NCBI GenBank assembly: GCA_025356815.1
Contig: JANXQL010000069.1
Location: 1-53,123, forward strand
Reading direction: 5' to 3'
Source: Pseudomonadota bacterium
GTDB lineage: Bacteria > Pseudomonadota > Gammaproteobacteria > Steroidobacterales > Steroidobacteraceae
DNA length: 53,123 bases
The notes under the pieces are model-generated. The model was not told where the DNA came from, searched no databases, and saw only the letters and a program-made list of their open reading frames with translations. Shown one piece after another: positions 23,112 to 32,355 of the stretch (the stretch's first letter is position 1; every line of letters starts with the position of its first letter). The position numbers were made by a program, and so were the translations under genes.

Positions 23112-23417
23112 CTATTCGGCGTCCGGTTCGACGTGCCCGGCTTCGCGCTGATGGCGGATCGCGAGCACGAGGACAGTCTCCTCAACCGCCTCGCGACTGT
23201 AGAGCGCGACGTATCCGGACCGGCCGCGCGAAATCACGAGTTCCCGAAACTCGGATTCGACGGACCGTCCGATCAGCGGGTGGCGCCGAAGCACGAGAAC
23301 GGCCTCCTCGATCAGCCCCACCGTCTCGAGCGCCGCTGCCGGATCGGATTCGAGCAAGAACTCCGTGAGGCGCTCCAGATCCGCAAGCGCCTGCTCGGTA
23401 TAGATCAGCCTTGCCAA
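23112..23417 (-). CDS. parE: ParE/RelE-family toxin
   Basis: This 101-residue protein has the ParE-like pattern: IYTEQALADLERLTEFLLE, a helix with AVLVLRRHPLIGR, the RELVISRGRSGYVALYS strand pair and VLVLAIRHQREAGH at the end. The family includes gyrase-poisoning ParE and RelE ribonucleases, and the RHxRE tail is typical of ParE. Its start at 23417 overlaps the antitoxin gene by 13 bp. The antitoxin comes first, the usual order. The target is inferred from family only. Confidence 0.85.
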   Translation of the reverse strand: MARLIYTEQALADLERLTEFLLESDPAAALETVGLIEEAVLVLRRHPLIGRSVESEFRELVISRGRSGYVALYSREAVEETVLVLAIRHQREAGHVEPDAE

Positions 23418-23689
23418 GACACCGACTTCGGTCGGGCGACAGACCGGCCTTTGATTCGCGCCCGAAGGTACTCGTGCACGGCCTCAGCCTCGTATCCCTT
23501 GCCAGTCCGCAGCGCCGCCTTGCTGGCCTTCTCCGCCTGTGCGACGAACGAAGCTCGCAGTTCAGCGGCCTTGGCTGAAGCCTCGATTGCCTGAACCATG
23601 AACGCGTGCGTGGTCACACCACGGTCCTGGGCGGCCGCGATCACTCGCTTCTTGAGATTGTCCGGCAGTTTCAGCGACGTCGTGGCCAC
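23405..23689 (-). CDS. parD: Ribbon-helix-helix antitoxin of the ParDE-like pair
   Basis: This protein of about 94 residues begins VATTSLKLPDNLKKRVIAAA, a ribbon-helix-helix DNA-binding N-terminus (residues 3-45), followed by an acidic, Ala-rich helical tail (AEKASKAALRTGKGYEAEAVHEYLR region) that should wrap the toxin. The GTG at 23689 was chosen because GGAGA lies 6 bases upstream and the RHH strand begins at once; an upstream extension to 23755 has no family match. It is expected to repress the operon through the imperfect palindrome at 23708-23727. Confidence 0.83.
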   Translation of the reverse strand: MATTSLKLPDNLKKRVIAAAQDRGVTTHAFMVQAIEASAKAAELRASFVAQAEKASKAALRTGKGYEAEAVHEYLRARIKGRSVARPKSVSWQG

Positions 23690-23707
23690 GGAGGATCTCC
23701 AAGCATC

Positions 23708-23745
23708 GGTGTCACCACGGTAGCACCGGCGCTGCCCTCCGTCAA
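23708..23745 (-). promoter_or_regulatory. Promoter and operator of the ParDE-like operon
   Basis: On the minus strand, TTGACG (23740-23745), 17 bp and TACCGT (23717-23722). The 20-bp imperfect palindrome GGTGTCACCACGGTAGCACC (23708-23727) covers the -10 region. Matching half-site bases are GGTG, ACC, GGT and CACC. This fits autorepression by the RHH antitoxin. Confidence 0.55.
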
Positions 23746-24317
23746 AAAAGAGCAATGTCCAATGGAGTTATGAGTCTGAATCCGCGGCCTAGCGAAGACT
23801 GCACCTTCTCCCCCACCGGTAACTTCGCGAGCTTGAAGGGCTGTCAATTTGGCCGTTTGAAGGCGCCCATCATGGAACCGGCGGCGCCGCACCGTCGCTC
23901 GGCCCCACCCTTCGCCGCGGACCTTCCTATGCCCGGATCATCGCTAGACTTCCGGTAGACGCTGACGCTGAAATTGCGCCGGCTGTGACTGCAAGACCCA
24001 AGGGCTCCAGACAGTCGAAGCGCACCGACGATCCCGGGTGTAGAGGTGCCTTCATCGCGATCAGTCCATTCTCCGTCAGTGAAAATCGACAAGGTCGACA
24101 TCAGCAACATCTATAGCGTTGAAATGAAGGGCCTCATGGTTTCCAGATACCCAAACCGACCAAAGGCCTTTCAGCTTTCGCTTCAGCGGCTGCAACTTCA
24201 TTCCCGGCAGATTGTAGCCGGACGAAATTCCGCCACCTTGCGCGCAACAACGCATGCGGCGATGCAGCGAAAGCGGAAGACTCACTGATTTCGCAAAGGC
24301 CGCTCTCGGTCCAAGAC
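23746..24317. other. Non-coding stretch before the repeat-protein operon
   Basis: No gene that I can support lies in these roughly 570 bases. Several short frames exist on both strands but lack ribosome sites and family resemblance. It is more AT-rich than the genes around it, and could contain decayed mobile-element sequence that I cannot identify. Confidence 0.4.
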
Positions 24318-24441: not shown

Positions 24442-27400
24442 ATGCGCCTCGTCAGCCGGATGGCAGCCCTGATCGCTGTCGGGTTCCTCGCCACCACCGC
24501 GGATGCCGCGCACCTCGTGCGCGACATCAATGCCGCGCCGATCGCGACCGGGGCCACGGCCGCAGGCTGGGTGCAGGTCGGCAGCGCTACGCTCTTCTGG
24601 ATGGATGACGGCATCCATGGCCAGGAGCTCTGGCGGACGGATGGCACGCCGGCCGGGACCCGGCTCGTCAAGGACATCAACCCGGGGCCCGCGAGTTCGA
24701 ACGCGACCTCAGCGACGCTGCTCGGCGGCGTGCTGTACTTCATCGCGACCGACGGCACCAACGGCACCGAGCTCTGGCGTTCGGACGGTACCAGCGCCGG
24801 CACCCATATCGTCGCCGACATCAACCCCGGCGCCGGCGACGGCGCGACCAGCAACTCCGGCTACGGCGGACCGCTGCCGACGCTGAACGGCGTGATGTAC
24901 TTCGCGGGCACCGAGCCCGGCACCGGCATGGAACTGTGGCGCTCGGACGGTACCGCCACCGGGACCTACCGGGTCGTGGACACGTGGCCCGGGGGTGGCT
25001 CCTCGGCGCCCACGCTGATCACGGTGGTCGGCAGCCGCGTGTTCTTCGTCGCGGGGGAATCGGCGAACAGCACGCCGCTGTGGTCCACGGACGGCACCGC
25101 CGCCGGCACGAAGCGCGTGACGAGCTTCGGCGCCGGCGGGTTCCCGTCGTTCGGGAACCTGACGGCGACGACGGCAGGCCTGTTCTTCTCGGTCGACGAC
25201 GGCACACACGGCCGCGAGCTGTACTTCGCAAACGCCGATGGCAGCGGCGCCCACCTGGTCACCGACCTTTCGCCGGGCAGCAATCCGACCAGCTTCTCGC
25301 CGTTCGTGGCGCTCGGCGGGGACGTGCTGTTTGGCGCCAGCGTCGTGGGCGGCGCGCAGCCGGGCAGCCACGTCTATCGCGCCAGCAGCAGCGGCGTGCA
25401 GCTGCTCGCGAACGTCGCGTCGATGGGCGCCGCGCCGATTCCCGAGGGATTCGTGGCGGTCGGCAACCGCTTCGTGTTCGGCGTCGAAGGCGGCTACAAC
25501 AGCACTTTCGAGGTCTGGGTCAGCGACGGCACGAGCGGCGGAACCCGACGACTCGGCGCGGCGGCGGGCCTCTTGTCGGTGTCGCTGATCGGCGGCGGAA
25601 TCTCGCTGTCGGCGCTCGTCGGCAGCGACGGACTGTACTTCTGGGGCGTCACGAGCGGCCAGTCAGGGACGATGCAACTGTGGCGGACCGACGGCACCGA
25701 CGCCGGCACCCGCGTGTACGCCGCGCCGCCGCAGCCCCAGGACAACAGCGACCTCGCGCAGTTCCAGGGGCGGATCTGGTTCCGCTCGGGACGCTTCGGC
25801 ACCAGCGGCTGGGAACCCTGGGTCAGCGACGGCACCGTCGCAGGAACGCAGCAGTTCGCGGACCTGAACCCCGGCGCGGCCGATTCGGCGCCGTCCGGCG
25901 ACACGGTCGTCGGCGGTCGGCTGTACTTCAACGCGAGTTCGCCGAGCGGGTTCGGGCCGTGGGTCTCGGACGGCACGGTCGCAGGCACCGTCCCGCTCGA
26001 CCCCCCGCTCGCGCCGGCCCGGTCCGCCGCGTCGAACCCGCAGTTCTCGTACCAGGTCGGCAACCGCGCCGTGTTCACCGCCGACGACGGCGTCCACGGG
26101 CAGGAGCTCTGGGCCTCCGACGGCACCAGCGCGGGCACGGTACTGCTGCGCGACGTCAACCCGGGCGCGGGCCAGGCGCCCGGGGTCATCGCCTCGCTCG
26201 GCCCGCTGCTGCTGTTCGTCGAGGACGACGGTATCCACGGCAGCGAACTCTGGGCCACCGACGGCACGCCCGCCGGCACCACCCTTGTCAAGGACATCAA
26301 CCCCGGCGCCGCCTCGAGCTCGCCGTCCGCGTTCTTCGGCAGCTCGGTGGTCGTGAACGGTGCGGCCTACTTCACCGCAGACGACGGCGTGCACGGCATC
26401 GAGCTGTGGAAGAGCGACGGCACGGCCGCGGGCACGACGATGGTCGTAGACCTCACGCCCGGTGCCGCGGCGAGCGGCATCGCGAGTGCCCAGCCGGTCG
26501 GCAATCGCGTGGTGTTCCGGCTGGTCGAGCCCGCGGGCTGGTTCCTGTGGTCGACCGACGGCACCGCGGCGGGCACGCAGCGGGCCTCGGCCGCCGTGCA
26601 GCCGACCTCGATCGACTCGGTGGTCGTCAACGGACTACTGTACTTCGGCGGTCAGCCGGCGCCGGTCACCACCGCCTCGCACGGCCAGCTGTGGCGCACC
26701 GACGGCACGCCGGCGGGCACGACCCTGGTCGCCGATCCGGCACCGAGCGCGAGCTACAGCGGCGTCGACTACTTCAGCAGCGTCGGTGGCCACGTGCTGT
26801 TCGACTACTGCAGCAACGGCGCGACCGCGACCTGCGGCGAGTACACGAGCGACGGCACCGCCGCGGGCACCGTGCCGATGTCCCCCGACATCGTCCCGGG
26901 CAACTACTTCGGCATCGCCGGTGCCAGCGCCGTCGTCGGCAACCAGATCTACTACGGGTTCTACACCTCGACGACCTACGGGCTGCGCGTCAGCGACGGC
27001 ACGGCCGCCGGCACGCGCGACATCTACGCGGCACCGGTCGCGAGTGGCGACAACGTGCTCGCGTTCGCGGTCGTGCAGGGTCACGTCGTGTTCACGCGCC
27101 GCGCGCAAGGCATCGGGCCCTCGGTGTGGACGACTGACGGCACGGCGGCCGGCACGCGACTCGTTGCCGACGTCGACCCCGGCACCGCGCAATGGGAACC
27201 CGGGAACTACCTCGCGGTCGGCAACCAGATGCTGTTCACGGCCTACACGCCGCAGACCGGGGTCGAGCTCTACGCCCTCGACATCACGCGGCCGGACGCG
27301 AGCGACGATGCCGTCGTCACGGCCGGCAGCGCGGGAACGGGAACGCCGATCGCGGTGCTCGCCAACGACGGCGGCATCGTCGCGCCACTCGCACCGGGCA

Positions 27401-27747
27401 GCGTGCAGGTCACGGTCGCGCCGACGCAGGGCACGACCAGCGTCGACCCATCCACCGGCGTGATTACCTACACCGCGAATGCGGGCGCCGGTGGCAACGA
27501 CCAGTTCAGCTACACGGTCGCCGACACGCGCGGCGTCACCGCGGCGCCCGCGACCGTGTACGTCTCGATCGCCGAGCCCGCGGGGCCCGCGCCCGGGACG
27601 GCGCCGCCCGCGCCGACACCGACGCCGGCGCCCGCCGGCCAATCGGGGGGCGGTGCGTTCGATCCCGCGACGCTCGCGGCGCTCGCGCTCCTCGCGGGCT
27701 GGGTGTTACTGCGGCGGCGGCGCGCGTCTGGCGAGGTCATGGGGTGA
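24442..27747 (+). CDS. Secreted ELWxxDGT-repeat protein with a GlyGly-CTERM-like tail
   Basis: This 1,101-residue exported protein has a signal peptide (about residues 1-22, cleavage near TADA-AH). Then come 16 repeats built on (E/Q)LWxxDGTxAGT followed by a variable strand and often DINPG, the pattern named ELWxxDGT repeat, probably forming a beta-propeller-like or elongated beta structure. Around 950-1050 is one Ig/cadherin-like domain with the VLANDGG motif. It ends with a Pro/Thr linker, SGGGAFDP, a hydrophobic helix (about 1075-1090) and RRRR (1091-1094). That tripartite tail matches the GlyGly-CTERM sorting signal, cut by rhombosortase. The likely rhombosortase follows, overlapping by 4 bp. 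The function is unknown; surface display or release is inferred. Start: AGGGGG lies 5 bases upstream. Confidence 0.92.
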   Translation: MRLVSRMAALIAVGFLATTADAAHLVRDINAAPIATGATAAGWVQVGSATLFWMDDGIHGQELWRTDGTPAGTRLVKDINPGPASSNATSATLLGGVLYFIATDGTNGTELWRSDGTSAGTHIVADINPGAGDGATSNSGYGGPLPTLNGVMYFAGTEPGTGMELWRSDGTATGTYRVVDTWPGGGSSAPTLITVVGSRVFFVAGESANSTPLWSTDGTAAGTKRVTSFGAGGFPSFGNLTATTAGLFFSVDDGTHGRELYFANADGSGAHLVTDLSPGSNPTSFSPFVALGGDVLFGASVVGGAQPGSHVYRASSSGVQLLANVASMGAAPIPEGFVAVGNRFVFGVEGGYNSTFEVWVSDGTSGGTRRLGAAAGLLSVSLIGGGISLSALVGSDGLYFWGVTSGQSGTMQLWRTDGTDAGTRVYAAPPQPQDNSDLAQFQGRIWFRSGRFGTSGWEPWVSDGTVAGTQQFADLNPGAADSAPSGDTVVGGRLYFNASSPSGFGPWVSDGTVAGTVPLDPPLAPARSAASNPQFSYQVGNRAVFTADDGVHGQELWASDGTSAGTVLLRDVNPGAGQAPGVIASLGPLLLFVEDDGIHGSELWATDGTPAGTTLVKDINPGAASSSPSAFFGSSVVVNGAAYFTADDGVHGIELWKSDGTAAGTTMVVDLTPGAAASGIASAQPVGNRVVFRLVEPAGWFLWSTDGTAAGTQRASAAVQPTSIDSVVVNGLLYFGGQPAPVTTASHGQLWRTDGTPAGTTLVADPAPSASYSGVDYFSSVGGHVLFDYCSNGATATCGEYTSDGTAAGTVPMSPDIVPGNYFGIAGASAVVGNQIYYGFYTSTTYGLRVSDGTAAGTRDIYAAPVASGDNVLAFAVVQGHVVFTRRAQGIGPSVWTTDGTAAGTRLVADVDPGTAQWEPGNYLAVGNQMLFTAYTPQTGVELYALDITRPDASDDAVVTAGSAGTGTPIAVLANDGGIVAPLAPGSVQVTVAPTQGTTSVDPSTGVITYTANAGAGGNDQFSYTVADTRGVTAAPATVYVSIAEPAGPAPGTAPPAPTPTPAPAGQSGGGAFDPATLAALALLAGWVLLRRRRASGEVMG

Positions 27748-28394
27748 ACGCGCGCGGGACCTCGGCGGAGCTGCGCGCGCTCGACCTCGGGCCGCTCGCG
27801 CTGCTCACCACCGTGTTCCTCGCGCTCGTCGTCCTCGACCCGGTCGGGCGGCCACTCCGGGCCGCGCTCCTCTACGCCCGCGCGCCGCTCGCCGCGGGCG
27901 AGGTCTGGCGGCTGGTGACGGCACACATCATCCACGAGGACCTGCGCCATGCGCTCCTGAACGTCGGTGGCCTCGGCCTGCTGTGGCTGCTGTATCGCAA
28001 TGCCGAAAGTACCGCGAATTGGCTGCTCGTGATCGGGATCACGGCGCTGTCTATCGACGCCGGACTCTACGTCGCGCAACCGCAGGTCGAGTGGTATCTC
28101 GGCGCGTCGGGCGTGCTGCACGGCATCTGGGCGGCGGGTGCGATCTTCTCGCTCGCGCACTCACGGCTCGAAGGCGTCGTGATGCTTGGCGCGCTGCTCG
28201 GGAAACTGGGGCTCGAGCAGATCTTCGGTCCGCTCTCGGGAACGAACGACGGGCTTGGTGTCGTCACGGTGGCGCATCTGTACGGGGCGCTCGGCGGCCT
28301 GTCGGCGTCGGCGCTGGTCGCGCGCAAGCATGCGCGCTCCGCGACCGCCGCCGCGCCCCGCGACGCGAGCGCGCCGCGTTCGGCGATCCGCTGA
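27744..28394 (+). CDS. rrtA: Rhombosortase (rhomboid-family intramembrane serine protease)
   Basis: This 216-residue integral membrane protein is a compact rhomboid of the rhombosortase type, which cleaves the C-terminal helix of GlyGly-CTERM proteins. The catalytic Ser-122 is in YLGASGVLHG and the catalytic His-178 in VAHLYGALGG. The N-terminal signature VWRLVTAHIIHEDLRHALLN (54-73) is typical of the group. Five or six helices are apparent. The GTG start at 27744 overlaps the stop of the repeat-protein gene as GTGA, with GAGG upstream, so the protease and its presumed substrate are translationally coupled. No other gene in the window carries a GlyGly-CTERM tail. The call is strong on motif plus context. 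Confidence 0.9.
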   Translation: MNARGTSAELRALDLGPLALLTTVFLALVVLDPVGRPLRAALLYARAPLAAGEVWRLVTAHIIHEDLRHALLNVGGLGLLWLLYRNAESTANWLLVIGITALSIDAGLYVAQPQVEWYLGASGVLHGIWAAGAIFSLAHSRLEGVVMLGALLGKLGLEQIFGPLSGTNDGLGVVTVAHLYGALGGLSASALVARKHARSATAAAPRDASAPRSAIR

Positions 28395-28519
28395 TCGGGG
28401 GCGGTGGCGCCCGGAGGGTCGGCTGAATCTTGGCTCACTATGCAGGCTGCATTTTATTGATTCCAGGTGGATTCATTGCAAGGCAGCACAGTCAAGGGCA
28501 GGGGCACGACGATGAAGCG

Positions 28520-29491
28520 ATGCCGCACGGCGTGCGCGCACTCGCAGGTGGAGATGCACTGCGCGCGGTCACTCTGCGTCAGCTGCGCGCGTTCTCGCTG
28601 ATCTCACACCACCGCAGCTTCACGCGGGCCGCGCCGGAACTGCACCTGACCACTCCAGCTGTCTCGCCGCAGATACGTGACCTGGAGAGCACGCTCGGCC
28701 TCGCCCTGTTCTGCCGCAGCGGCCGAAGTGTCGATGACCCAGGCCGGCGAGCAGCTGCTGGGCGAGGTCAATCGCGCGCTGCGTTCGCTCACCGACGCAA
28801 GCGACACGCTGCTGCGCCTGAAGGGTCGTGAGTCCGGGGTAATCTCCGTCGGCATGGTGACCAACGCGAAGTACTTCGTGCCACGCGTGATCACCAACTT
28901 CCACGCGGAACATCCGCCTATCGAGTTGCGCCTGGTCGTGGGCAATCGCGAACAGATCCTGCGTCAGATCTGCGGCGGCGAGACGGACTTCGCGATCATG
29001 GGCACGCCCCCAGACGATCTGGGGTTGACCGCGATCCGGTTCGCGGCGCAGCCACTGGTCGTGGTCACGTGCTCAGCGCAGCTGCGCGGATATCGCCCGC
29101 GCAGCTGGCCGAGCACGACTTCATCGTCCGCGAACGGGGCTCCGGCACACGTGCAGCGATGGAGCAGTGCTTCCTGCACGAGGGCATCACGCCGCCGCGT
29201 GTCATGGGACTCAGCAGCCACGAGACCCTCAAGCAGGCGGTCATGGCCGGGATGGGCCTCGCCTTCCTGTCGCTAGACACGCTTGGCCTTGAGCTCAAGG
29301 AGCGCCTGCTGACCACACTCGATGTGATCGGGCTGCCTCTGCAACGCCGCTGGTGCGTCGTGCGCAGTGCGAGCGAGCCGCTCACGGCGGCAGCCGGCAG
29401 TCTGCTGCATTACGTGGTCGATCATGGCGGCGACTCGACTAGCGTGACGCACGACGCCGTGCCCGCCCTCGTGCCGTTGCCGGCAAGCTAA
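28520..29491 (+). pseudogene. LysR-family (CbbR-like) regulator broken by two frameshifts
   Basis: The pieces of one LysR-type regulator lie in order in different frames. The HTH (VTLRQLRAFSLISHHRSF ... LTTPAVSPQIRDLE) is in the frame opened at 28520. Near 28725-28735 the reading moves to the frame of SMTQAGEQLLGEVN and the first half of the ligand-binding domain (GVISVGMVTNAKYFVP ... FAIMGTPPDDLG). Near 29070-29090 it returns to the first frame for AQLAEHDFIVRERGSGTRAAM through MAGMGLAFLSLDTLGLEL to the stop. The content resembles CbbR-type regulators of carbon fixation. Two independent indels argue for real decay, although assembly error cannot be excluded. No intact neighbour is an obvious target. 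Confidence 0.85.
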
Positions 29492-31339: not shown

Positions 31340-32050
31340 TCAGACCGCGCCGCGCAGGCGGCGCGGCATCGCCGCAAGTCCGAGCACGGCGCTCAACAGC
31401 AGCCAGGCCGCGGCCGGCAGCGGCGTGGAGACGAGGTTGAGCTGGCCGACGTACGTCCCGCCACCGGTGCCGCTGGCGATGCCTGCGATATCCAGCAGGT
31501 AGGTGTGGTTGGCCTGGATGTTCGAGAACGTCGCGAGCACCGAAGTCGCGCCCGGCTGCGGGCCGGTCCAGGCGGTCAGGAACACGCTGCCGGCAGGCAC
31601 GCCGCCGACGGTAGGCGTCATCGACGCGGCCGCCGTCACATCGTACAGCCGCATCTGCAGGTTGCTGATGTCGAAGGTCGGCGGCAGACCGAGCTGGGCC
31701 GTCAGCACGTTGCCGCTCGCGGTGCCGCCCACCGTGAAGCGGTAGCTGTCCTGGAAGTCGTAGGCGCCAACGGACGACGTCCCGAGCGTGATCGTCTGCT
31801 GGGACGTGAAGGTGTCGCTGAACGTGTACTGGCCGTCGACACCGAGCCTGTAGTCGTTGCCGACGGTCGGGGTCGTGCCATTCTGGCCGAGGAACTGAAA
31901 TGACGCCGCCATCGCGCCGCTGACGTTGAGCGCGATGGTCGCCGCCTGCCCCACCGCCGGCAGAACCATCAGCAGCACAGTCGCGACCGCCGCGAGCATC
32001 CGCCGTACGCCAGGTCCCTCTGTCGCACGGATCCTCCGCTTCTTGTCCAT
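31340..32050 (-). CDS. Secreted protein with a PEP-CTERM-like (PLPA-type) sorting tail
   Basis: This 236-residue exported protein has a basic N-terminus and signal peptide (cleavage near VGQA-AT) and a beta-rich body. The body reads like a choice-of-anchor domain (SDTFTSQQTITLGTS; YRFTVGGTASGNVL; LDIAGIASGTGGGTYVG). The C-terminus is TPLPAAAWLLLSAVLGLAAM followed by PRRLR, the VPLPA/PEP-CTERM variant normally handled by an exosortase. The ATG at 32050 was chosen because AGGGAG lies 5 bases upstream; a Met at 32065 lacks one. No exosortase lies in the window. PEP-CTERM proteins are typically linked to exopolysaccharide producers, which fits the sugar-nucleotide genes further along. Function otherwise unknown. 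Confidence 0.85.
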   Translation of the reverse strand: MDKKRRIRATEGPGVRRMLAAVATVLLMVLPAVGQAATIALNVSGAMAASFQFLGQNGTTPTVGNDYRLGVDGQYTFSDTFTSQQTITLGTSSVGAYDFQDSYRFTVGGTASGNVLTAQLGLPPTFDISNLQMRLYDVTAAASMTPTVGGVPAGSVFLTAWTGPQPGATSVLATFSNIQANHTYLLDIAGIASGTGGGTYVGQLNLVSTPLPAAAWLLLSAVLGLAAMPRRLRGAV

Positions 32051-32355
32051 GGAACTCCCTTTCACTAACCGATTGCCGGGTGCCGATAGCAGTCAGCTTG
32101 CGGTCGGAATATGACAACTGGAAAGCCGGTTCGTGACGAGGTTGCGCCCTGCCGCCCGCCCGGGCGCGCCGCGGCGCGCGGCGGGGGGCATGCGGGAAGC
32201 AGACACGAACGGCCCGCGGCGTGTCCTCAGGCACGCCCAATGCGCGGCTCTGCGCGCGGACGGAAGTCTGCAGGCTGCTTGTGACGGATCGCTTGCGCGG
32301 TCATTGCAATCGGCTGACCGCCACGCGTCGGTTCGCCGACACGGGCTGCACGCTG
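32051..32355. other. Intergenic region upstream of the PEP-CTERM-like gene
   Basis: About 305 bases between two minus-strand genes, with no supported gene. It should contain the promoter of the PEP-CTERM-like gene, but I see no convincing -35/-10 pair or sigma-54 site. Confidence 0.4.

Follow-up and report, generated by a model that had tools for sequence, protein, structure and literature searches.

A Rhombosortase Gene Overlapping That of an ELWxxDGT Repeat Protein with a GlyGly-CTERM-Like Tail: A Probable Dedicated Sorting Unit outside the Usual Type II Secretion Slot

Rhombosortases and their targets have been described in two settings close to the one considered here. In the survey of Haft and Varghese (2011; PMC3237569), enzyme and target are encoded by consecutive genes in most genomes with a single target, arrangements that were termed dedicated systems. 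The targets, GlyGly-CTERM proteins, are described there as having a signal peptide and no further membrane segment, and their tails were curated by a rule that asks for a Gly motif without Cys, a hydrophobic stretch, and one or more basic residues from there to the C-terminus. In Vibrio cholerae, one enzyme (RssP) is reported to serve six GlyGly-CTERM proteins, such proteins being mostly predicted hydrolases (PMC6219818; PMC13393428). There, the action of the rhombosortase leaves the motif's second Gly exposed, and a glycerophosphoethanolamine-containing moiety becomes attached to the new end; the processed target VesB is taken by the type II secretion system (T2SS) to the surface, where most of it is retained (PMC6219818). 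The tail of VesB is reported to act together with a second secretion signal, an immunoglobulin (Ig) fold, the linker being predicted to be unstructured (PMC13393428, 2026). The subject of this study is a stretch of 53,123 nucleotides (the window), contig JANXQL010000069.1 of a gammaproteobacterium of the family Steroidobacteraceae (assembly GCA_025356815.1), in which the gene of a large protein made of ELWxxDGT repeats overlaps the gene of a rhombosortase, P0002. A dedicated rhombosortase/GlyGly-type sorting unit is the best account of this pair, with a probability that I would put at about 0.7.

The pair is a known arrangement, and its new details are the ELWxxDGT cargo, a somewhat drifted tail, and the apparent relocation of the protease gene. 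As in the dedicated systems of the 2011 survey, one TIGR03902 enzyme and one target, with a signal peptide and a tail of motif, helix and basic residues, are encoded by consecutive genes; the differences are the cargo (no word beginning with "ELW" occurs in the main text of PMC3237569) and a tail that falls below the TIGR03501 model. The original prediction, made from the sequence alone, took tight coupling to one substrate to be unusual. That view is not supported, since consecutive genes were reported for most single-target genomes in 2011 (PMC3237569), and single-substrate coupling as something unprecedented was rejected on the same published ground. With RssP and VesB (PMC6219818; PMC13393428) the locus shares the order of passenger, Ig-like domain, unstructured linker and GlyGly-type tail, as well as the rhomboid family of the enzyme, but it has a single repeat protein without an assigned activity, whose gene overlaps that of the enzyme.

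The repeat gene occupies positions 24442-27747 (+; 1101 codons, ATG start) and P0002 positions 27744-28394 (+; 216 codons, GTG start). They share four nucleotides (nt), GTGA, in which the GTG that starts P0002 runs into the TGA that ends the repeat gene; the coordinates, lengths and overlap in the original prediction were all correct. GAGG at 27733-27736 (+), 7 nt 5' of the GTG and within the final codons of the repeat gene, is a candidate ribosome-binding site for the protease gene, although translation may instead begin at the next in-frame start, the GTG at 27813. A scan for promoters and terminators picked up nothing resembling a promoter and a single terminator-like site, a yield that shuffled sequences reach as well. 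P0002 matches TIGR03902 with 117.3 bits (cut-off 84). Its predicted catalytic residues had been named beforehand and are well conserved: in an alignment of 97 rows, five of them doubtful and probably wrong-strand extractions, the column of Ser122 holds S in 94 and that of His178 holds H in 93. A single-sequence search for loci related to P0002 gave no matches, and a class-wide search found relatives in 117 of 369 genomes, the best identity apart from the gene itself being 45%. Of 30 class-wide loci, 27 were added to the 97-row alignment and tree (the other three were P0002 itself and two already included). An ELWxxDGT frame lies upstream in none of these 27, a negative of little weight, since for five of them the wrong strand was probably used.

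The product of the first gene begins with a hydrophobic stretch, read by eye as a signal peptide of residues 1-22 (MRLV...ADA; 24442-24507, +), where the structural model has a helix at residues 2-17 with low confidence. The repeat region follows (24511-27282, +). TIGR04534 matches it in 18 stretches with 594.5 bits (cut-off 65; E 1.9e-183), and the repeat assignment is therefore far above chance. The 16 repeats counted earlier agree with the 16 exact DGTxxGT motifs, but degenerate ones bring the positions to 19, spaced 41-55 residues apart, and a count of about 18-19 repeats is closer. The region is predicted to be propeller-like, the outcome of a fold prediction that had been called for at the outset: AlphaFold2, with 50 sequences, gave a mean predicted local confidence (pLDDT) of 81 and a predicted TM-score (pTM) of 0.73, with nearly all strands within the repeats. 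The top Foldseek matches (E down to 7e-17) include LRP2, LRP6, sortilin, DDB1 and BT4663, which I take to be propeller-bearing proteins; because their TM-scores are low, they back the class of fold but not a number of rings. Searches of PDB sequences gave no convincing relative, the single match having an E-value of 0.5. A hydropathy peak at residues 371-395 falls among the repeats, and part of it coincides with a stretch of low confidence in the model. Behind the repeats come an Ig-like domain (Big_9, residues 951-1041; 27292-27564, +; PF17963, 35.3 bits, cut-off 23.6), a Pro-rich linker predicted to be disordered (residues 1044-1067; 27571-27642, +; pLDDT below 50 at 1044-1073), and the tail.

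The tail (27643-27744, +) consists of SGGGAFDP and a predicted helix (residues 1075-1096) that takes in the final RRRR, without any Cys, and so counts as GlyGly-CTERM by the published curation rule. The curated model itself tells otherwise: TIGR03501 (GlyGly_CTERM) was unmatched at E-values up to 10, both in the search of the protein and in that of the whole genome, although the filters of HMMER discard most matches above an E-value of 0.1. The nearest curated tail model is that of JDVT-CTERM (NF033191), with 20.2 bits on the protein and 24.9 bits genome-wide, so that it outscores TIGR03501 on this tail while remaining under its own cut-off of 27. A model built from nine tails of relatives, with the repeat protein of the window left out, matched the tail with an E-value of 3.4e-6 among 4981 ends of open reading frames and 2.2e-4 genome-wide, and the tail of an orthologue from the same genus (genome G012, locus L175) just passes TIGR03501, with 15.7 bits against a cut-off of 15.5. 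Because the rule and TIGR03501 disagree, while the G012 tail passes and the held-out model matches, I call the tail, on its sequence, GlyGly-CTERM-like rather than a model-passing GlyGly-CTERM. The earlier statement that it fits GlyGly-CTERM is borne out by the rule and the relatives, but not by the curated model.

The position of P0002 is unlike that of most related enzymes. A survey of 98 genomes, the organism's own (G000) included, found a rhombosortase match at E-values up to 1e-15 in 68, at 70 places, one of which is that in the window; the other 69 neighbourhoods (L059-L127) were examined. The rhombosortase gene is divergent from the T2SS pseudopilin gene gspG in 56 of the 69 and has fabD downstream in 52, with both in 50 and at least one in 58, and some of the neighbourhoods in which one was missed are at contig ends; L119 (8359-9462) is an example. 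I will refer to this position as the slot. The gspG gene heads a run of pseudopilin genes (GspG, GspH and GspK are above their cut-offs in G010), and exactly four prepilin motifs were found in 40 of the 47 slot contexts that are long enough, 11 of the 58 being too short. An empty slot, with 106-329 nt between gspG and fabD, was seen in 11 of the genomes that lack a rhombosortase match at E-values up to 1e-15 (G002, G003, G005, G006, G008, G013, G014, G029, G032, G048 and G051). In this bacterial order, then, rhombosortase genes mostly adjoin T2SS pseudopilin genes, whereas no particular T2SS subclass was marked by rhombosortase in the 2011 survey (PMC3237569). A literature search on rhombosortase and gspG, limited to the text available, found no report of such a neighbourhood.

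Neither gspG nor fabD is present at 11 of the 69 places (L063, L091, L098, L099, L102, L113, L116, L122, L125, L126 and L127). Individual inspection of these relocated enzymes found a gene with an SGGG tail adjoining the protease gene or about 1 kb from it in seven (L063, L091, L098, L113, L122, L126 and L127). When all 69 neighbourhoods were searched with the hidden Markov model (HMM) of the tails, a tail gene appeared at 6 of 11 relocated but 0 of 58 slot enzymes (p = 4e-6, with five of the six tails being members of the model, and with a limit, E-values up to 0.005, picked after the list had been seen, the next match having an E-value of 0.29). Counting only tails found by models that lack them left 4 of the 11 and still none of the 58 (p = 4e-4). 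A regular expression applied to the same 69 picked out 4 of the 11 at both distances used, as compared with 1 of the 58 slot enzymes within 300 nt (p = 0.002) and 2 of them within 1500 nt (p = 0.005); by eye its slot matches are not real tails, the one within 300 nt being a frame antisense to fabD. All these p-values ignore shared ancestry. The tail of L098 alone passes TIGR03501 (16.1 bits). The cargos are diverse: a HAF repeat protein at L091, in the same genus as the window, a VIT/VWA protein at L122, PKD with cytochrome c at L098, and choice-of-anchor B with Calx-beta at L113, with no convincing family for those at L063 and L126. At L127 (G009, also of the same genus) the cargo is a rhombotarget lipoprotein (TIGR04179, 267 bits, cut-off 150), whose gene lies directly upstream of a relocated rhombosortase gene and is in this respect like that of the repeat protein; its passenger is unrelated, however, and its enzyme, with 67.5 bits, is below the TIGR03902 cut-off. 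The pair in the window appears to be a further relocated case. New here are the slot as the usual place of the gene in relatives, and the cargos with SGGG tails that were found beside some of the rhombosortase genes outside the slot and beside none of those within it.

Besides the failure of TIGR03501 and the better score of JDVT-CTERM, several other results weigh against a dedicated unit. Four relocated enzymes (L099, L102, L116 and L125) have no visible tail gene nearby, and leave-one-out models lost two tails, those of L063 and L098. The orthologue in G012, 56% identical to the repeat protein (L175, on contig G012:C23; the same as L257 in the ELWxxDGT set described below), has no rhombosortase gene adjoining it despite its SGGG tail, and the pairing of the repeat protein with a rhombosortase is for this reason not conserved; the G012 assembly is 83% complete, and neither a rhombosortase at E-values up to 1e-15 nor fabD was found in it. 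The flanks examined around 80 named ELWxxDGT loci, the top-ranking ones of 546, hold no rhombosortase-like open reading frame (E-values up to 1e-3). As to secretion, G000 does have T2SS-type genes, a point in favor of the unit; those on contig C66 include a GspG above its cut-off, a GspE and a secretin below theirs, and a T2SSF recognized by Pfam. They belong to an unusual type II/IV-like cluster (L189; G000:C66, 3703-13024, -) with GspE, GspF and GspG-like genes, whose secretin frame of 1017 residues bears TPR and a weak, below-cut-off match to cohesin and is below the cut-offs of both GspD and PilQ. Because the one cluster examined has this secretin, a canonical T2SS is not shown in G000. 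Finally, fabD was unmatched in G000, although present in 23 of 25 genomes searched (the other one without it being G012), and this, together with the missing slot-type gspG, weakens the claim of a single enzyme.

That claim deserves a closer look. The original prediction had proposed a search of the genome for other tails and other rhombosortases, and in G000 (4.0 Mb in 207 contigs, 95% complete) the search gave one of each. One rhombosortase is above the cut-off, a second rhomboid, on C88, having 33 bits and falling below it; one ELWxxDGT protein is present, with two weak matches elsewhere (E-values of 0.03 and 0.4); and the held-out tail model has a single match at E-values up to 0.01, the tail in the window. 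When that tail was included in the model and E-values up to 10 were allowed, five further partial matches appeared, with E-values of at least 1.25; another search gave weak tail matches on C77 and C185. The sensitivity of the tail model was checked in 48 genomes chosen from the 98. It gave 31 matches in 21 genomes (G024, G046, G059 and G067 with three apiece, G012 and G031 with two, and 15 others with one), of which nine are self-hits, eight genomes having supplied the nine tails of the model, three are in frames with an internal stop, and a few are in short frames. There were no matches in 27 of the 48, including rhombosortase carriers (G010, G011, G016-G018 and others), and because several rhombosortase-bearing genomes gave none, the model must miss some tails. 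In G000, gspG is above its cut-off on C66 alone, where it is about 45% identical to the slot gspG of three genus-mates, and a slot-type gspG was not found. A second rhombosortase may therefore be hidden, since the flanks of the usual locus are missing from the assembly. The notion of one enzyme with one substrate thus keeps the single enzyme, tail and repeat protein found in a nearly complete assembly and loses certainty with the slot flanks.

The same gap gives room to the strongest rival, that the pair is not dedicated at all: a slot-type rhombosortase with many substrates would lie in an unassembled region between gspG and fabD, and P0002 would be an extra copy, beside one substrate by chance. 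Besides the missing fabD and the low identity of the C66 gspG, the coexistence of slot-type and relocated rhombosortases in G057 and G067 is in keeping with it. The one GlyGly-like tail found in G000 speaks against it, if with the reservation just made about the model, and so do seven genomes with a relocated copy in which the slot is empty (G004, G009, G020, G022, G026, G037 and G038): there gspG and fabD are 94-185 nt apart, versus 661-856 nt in three filled slots. In two more genomes with a relocated copy, G045 and G039, the piece of sequence examined has no gspG. I regard this rival as possible but doubtful.

A different doubt is whether the tail belongs to rhombosortase. JDVT-CTERM tails have a CAAX-type protease as their cognate enzyme, and the tail could be served by such a protease, or by a system of the PEP-CTERM/exosortase type, with the overlap of the genes incidental. 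NF033191, at 20.2-24.9 bits, is after all the best curated tail match, and a protein that resembles FxDxF PEP-CTERM proteins and ends like VPLPA-CTERM ones, each resemblance being below cut-off, is encoded nearby (31340-32065, -), a hint of an exosortase-type system. All rival tail models, however, score below cut-off on a tail that is free of Cys, has a Gly motif and a basic end, and overlaps a rhombosortase gene, while the tail of the G012 orthologue passes TIGR03501 and SGGG tails recur beside relocated rhombosortases; another system is accordingly very unlikely. Just as improbable is a plain, uncleaved membrane anchor with a protease that acts on some other target, for although a C-terminal helix with positive residues would keep the repeat protein in the inner membrane, the Gly motif ahead of the helix is kept in the G012 orthologue and recurs in other cargos, the genes overlap, and the rhombosortase and GlyGly-CTERM families are known partners (PMC3237569).

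If the pair is a dedicated unit, as I favor, its operation may be pictured by analogy with V. cholerae. The repeat protein would be exported by Sec and held in the inner membrane by its C-terminal hydrophobic helix, where the co-translated rhombosortase would cut at SGGG and the new C-terminus would probably be resealed onto a lipid-type headgroup. The folded protein would then be carried over the outer membrane by a T2SS, for which the Ig-like domain before the tail may be a signal like the Ig fold of VesB, and would stay at the surface, where a propeller-type protein would serve for display or binding. What the sequence itself shows is the gene pair, the order of the domains, the catalytic residues, the build of the tail, and a location that differs from the one usual among relatives. 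Cleavage, lipid attachment, use of a T2SS and surface location are all inferred in this way, as is the function of the unit. The original prediction spoke of export and release. Release by the protease is doubtful, since rhombosortase processing in V. cholerae retains VesB at the surface (PMC6219818), and by that comparison surface anchoring is likelier. The observation behind the original prediction is thus confirmed, and its interpretation partly supported.

The cargo has no general tie to rhombosortase. The ELWxxDGT motif occurs in none of the 69 rhombosortase neighbourhoods of relatives, and the count of none in 80 ELWxxDGT loci (L257-L336) is the same with a cleaned rhombosortase model, one that finds the left-out P0002 with an E-value of 1.7e-63; the idea that ELWxxDGT proteins generally travel with a rhombosortase was rejected on these two counts. 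The repeat protein shares its repeat model, at 594 bits, with other TIGR04534 proteins, but the tails of these differ: judged by eye, the SGGG type is confined to L257, the G012 orthologue, among the best 80 of 546. Across phyla the tails vary, many in Bacteroidota resembling the C-terminal domain of the type IX secretion system, one in Pyxidicoccus containing Cys and resembling MYXO-CTERM, and others fitting other anchoring systems or going unrecognised, all by eye. The repeat looks like a surface module that adopts the anchor type of its host. In G012, SGGG-type tails end two ELWxxDGT proteins (L175, on G012:C23, and L176, on G012:C78), and a search of plasmids found 24 records that carry ELWxxDGT-like proteins. 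A literature search on the repeat found nothing about it.

The gene of P0002 was most likely relocated from the usual T2SS-linked rhombosortase of the lineage. Trees were made from the 97 rows, the five doubtful ones among them, and from 69 rows, without the class-wide rows and the fragment L126. P0002 groups with slot copies of its own genus, with the relocated copy of G004 and with some members of its family (support values of 94 and 86), and for this reason relocation within the lineage appears to fit better than import, although such grouping is short of proof. When all relocated copies were forced together, p-AU (the p-value of the approximately unbiased test) was 0.068, so that a common origin is neither rejected nor shown. 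The end branches of relocated copies are longer (median 1.05 versus 0.37 for slot copies, 11 and 58 rows, p = 2.5e-4). P0002 itself is only mildly diverged: its identity to slot copies is, on average, unremarkable, and 17 of the 58 slot copies are more distant.

Two other features lie close to the pair. The parts of a LysR/CbbR-like regulator gene at 28430-29491 (+) match as successive pieces in two reading frames, and the gene is on that account interrupted or mis-assembled. A little upstream of the pair, a ParE-type toxin gene (23112-23755, -; 53 bits) overlaps a small open reading frame that is antitoxin-like by eye, without a family match.

The pattern of relocation is the part of these results that a specialist might not know, and what the survey of neighbourhoods adds is testable. 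It may conceivably reflect a process in which dedicated units arise repeatedly, the enzyme leaving the T2SS slot or duplicating from it, being captured by one surface protein, and drifting together with its tail towards a private, possibly orthogonal pair. The drift of the tail is suggested by a window tail off TIGR03501, a G012 tail that just fits, and relocated enzymes that are more diverged; the process as a whole is a conjecture, and an unlikely one. Whatever its origin, the pair would offer a simple setting of one enzyme and one substrate in which to ask what a rhombosortase does to its target, without a background of other substrates.

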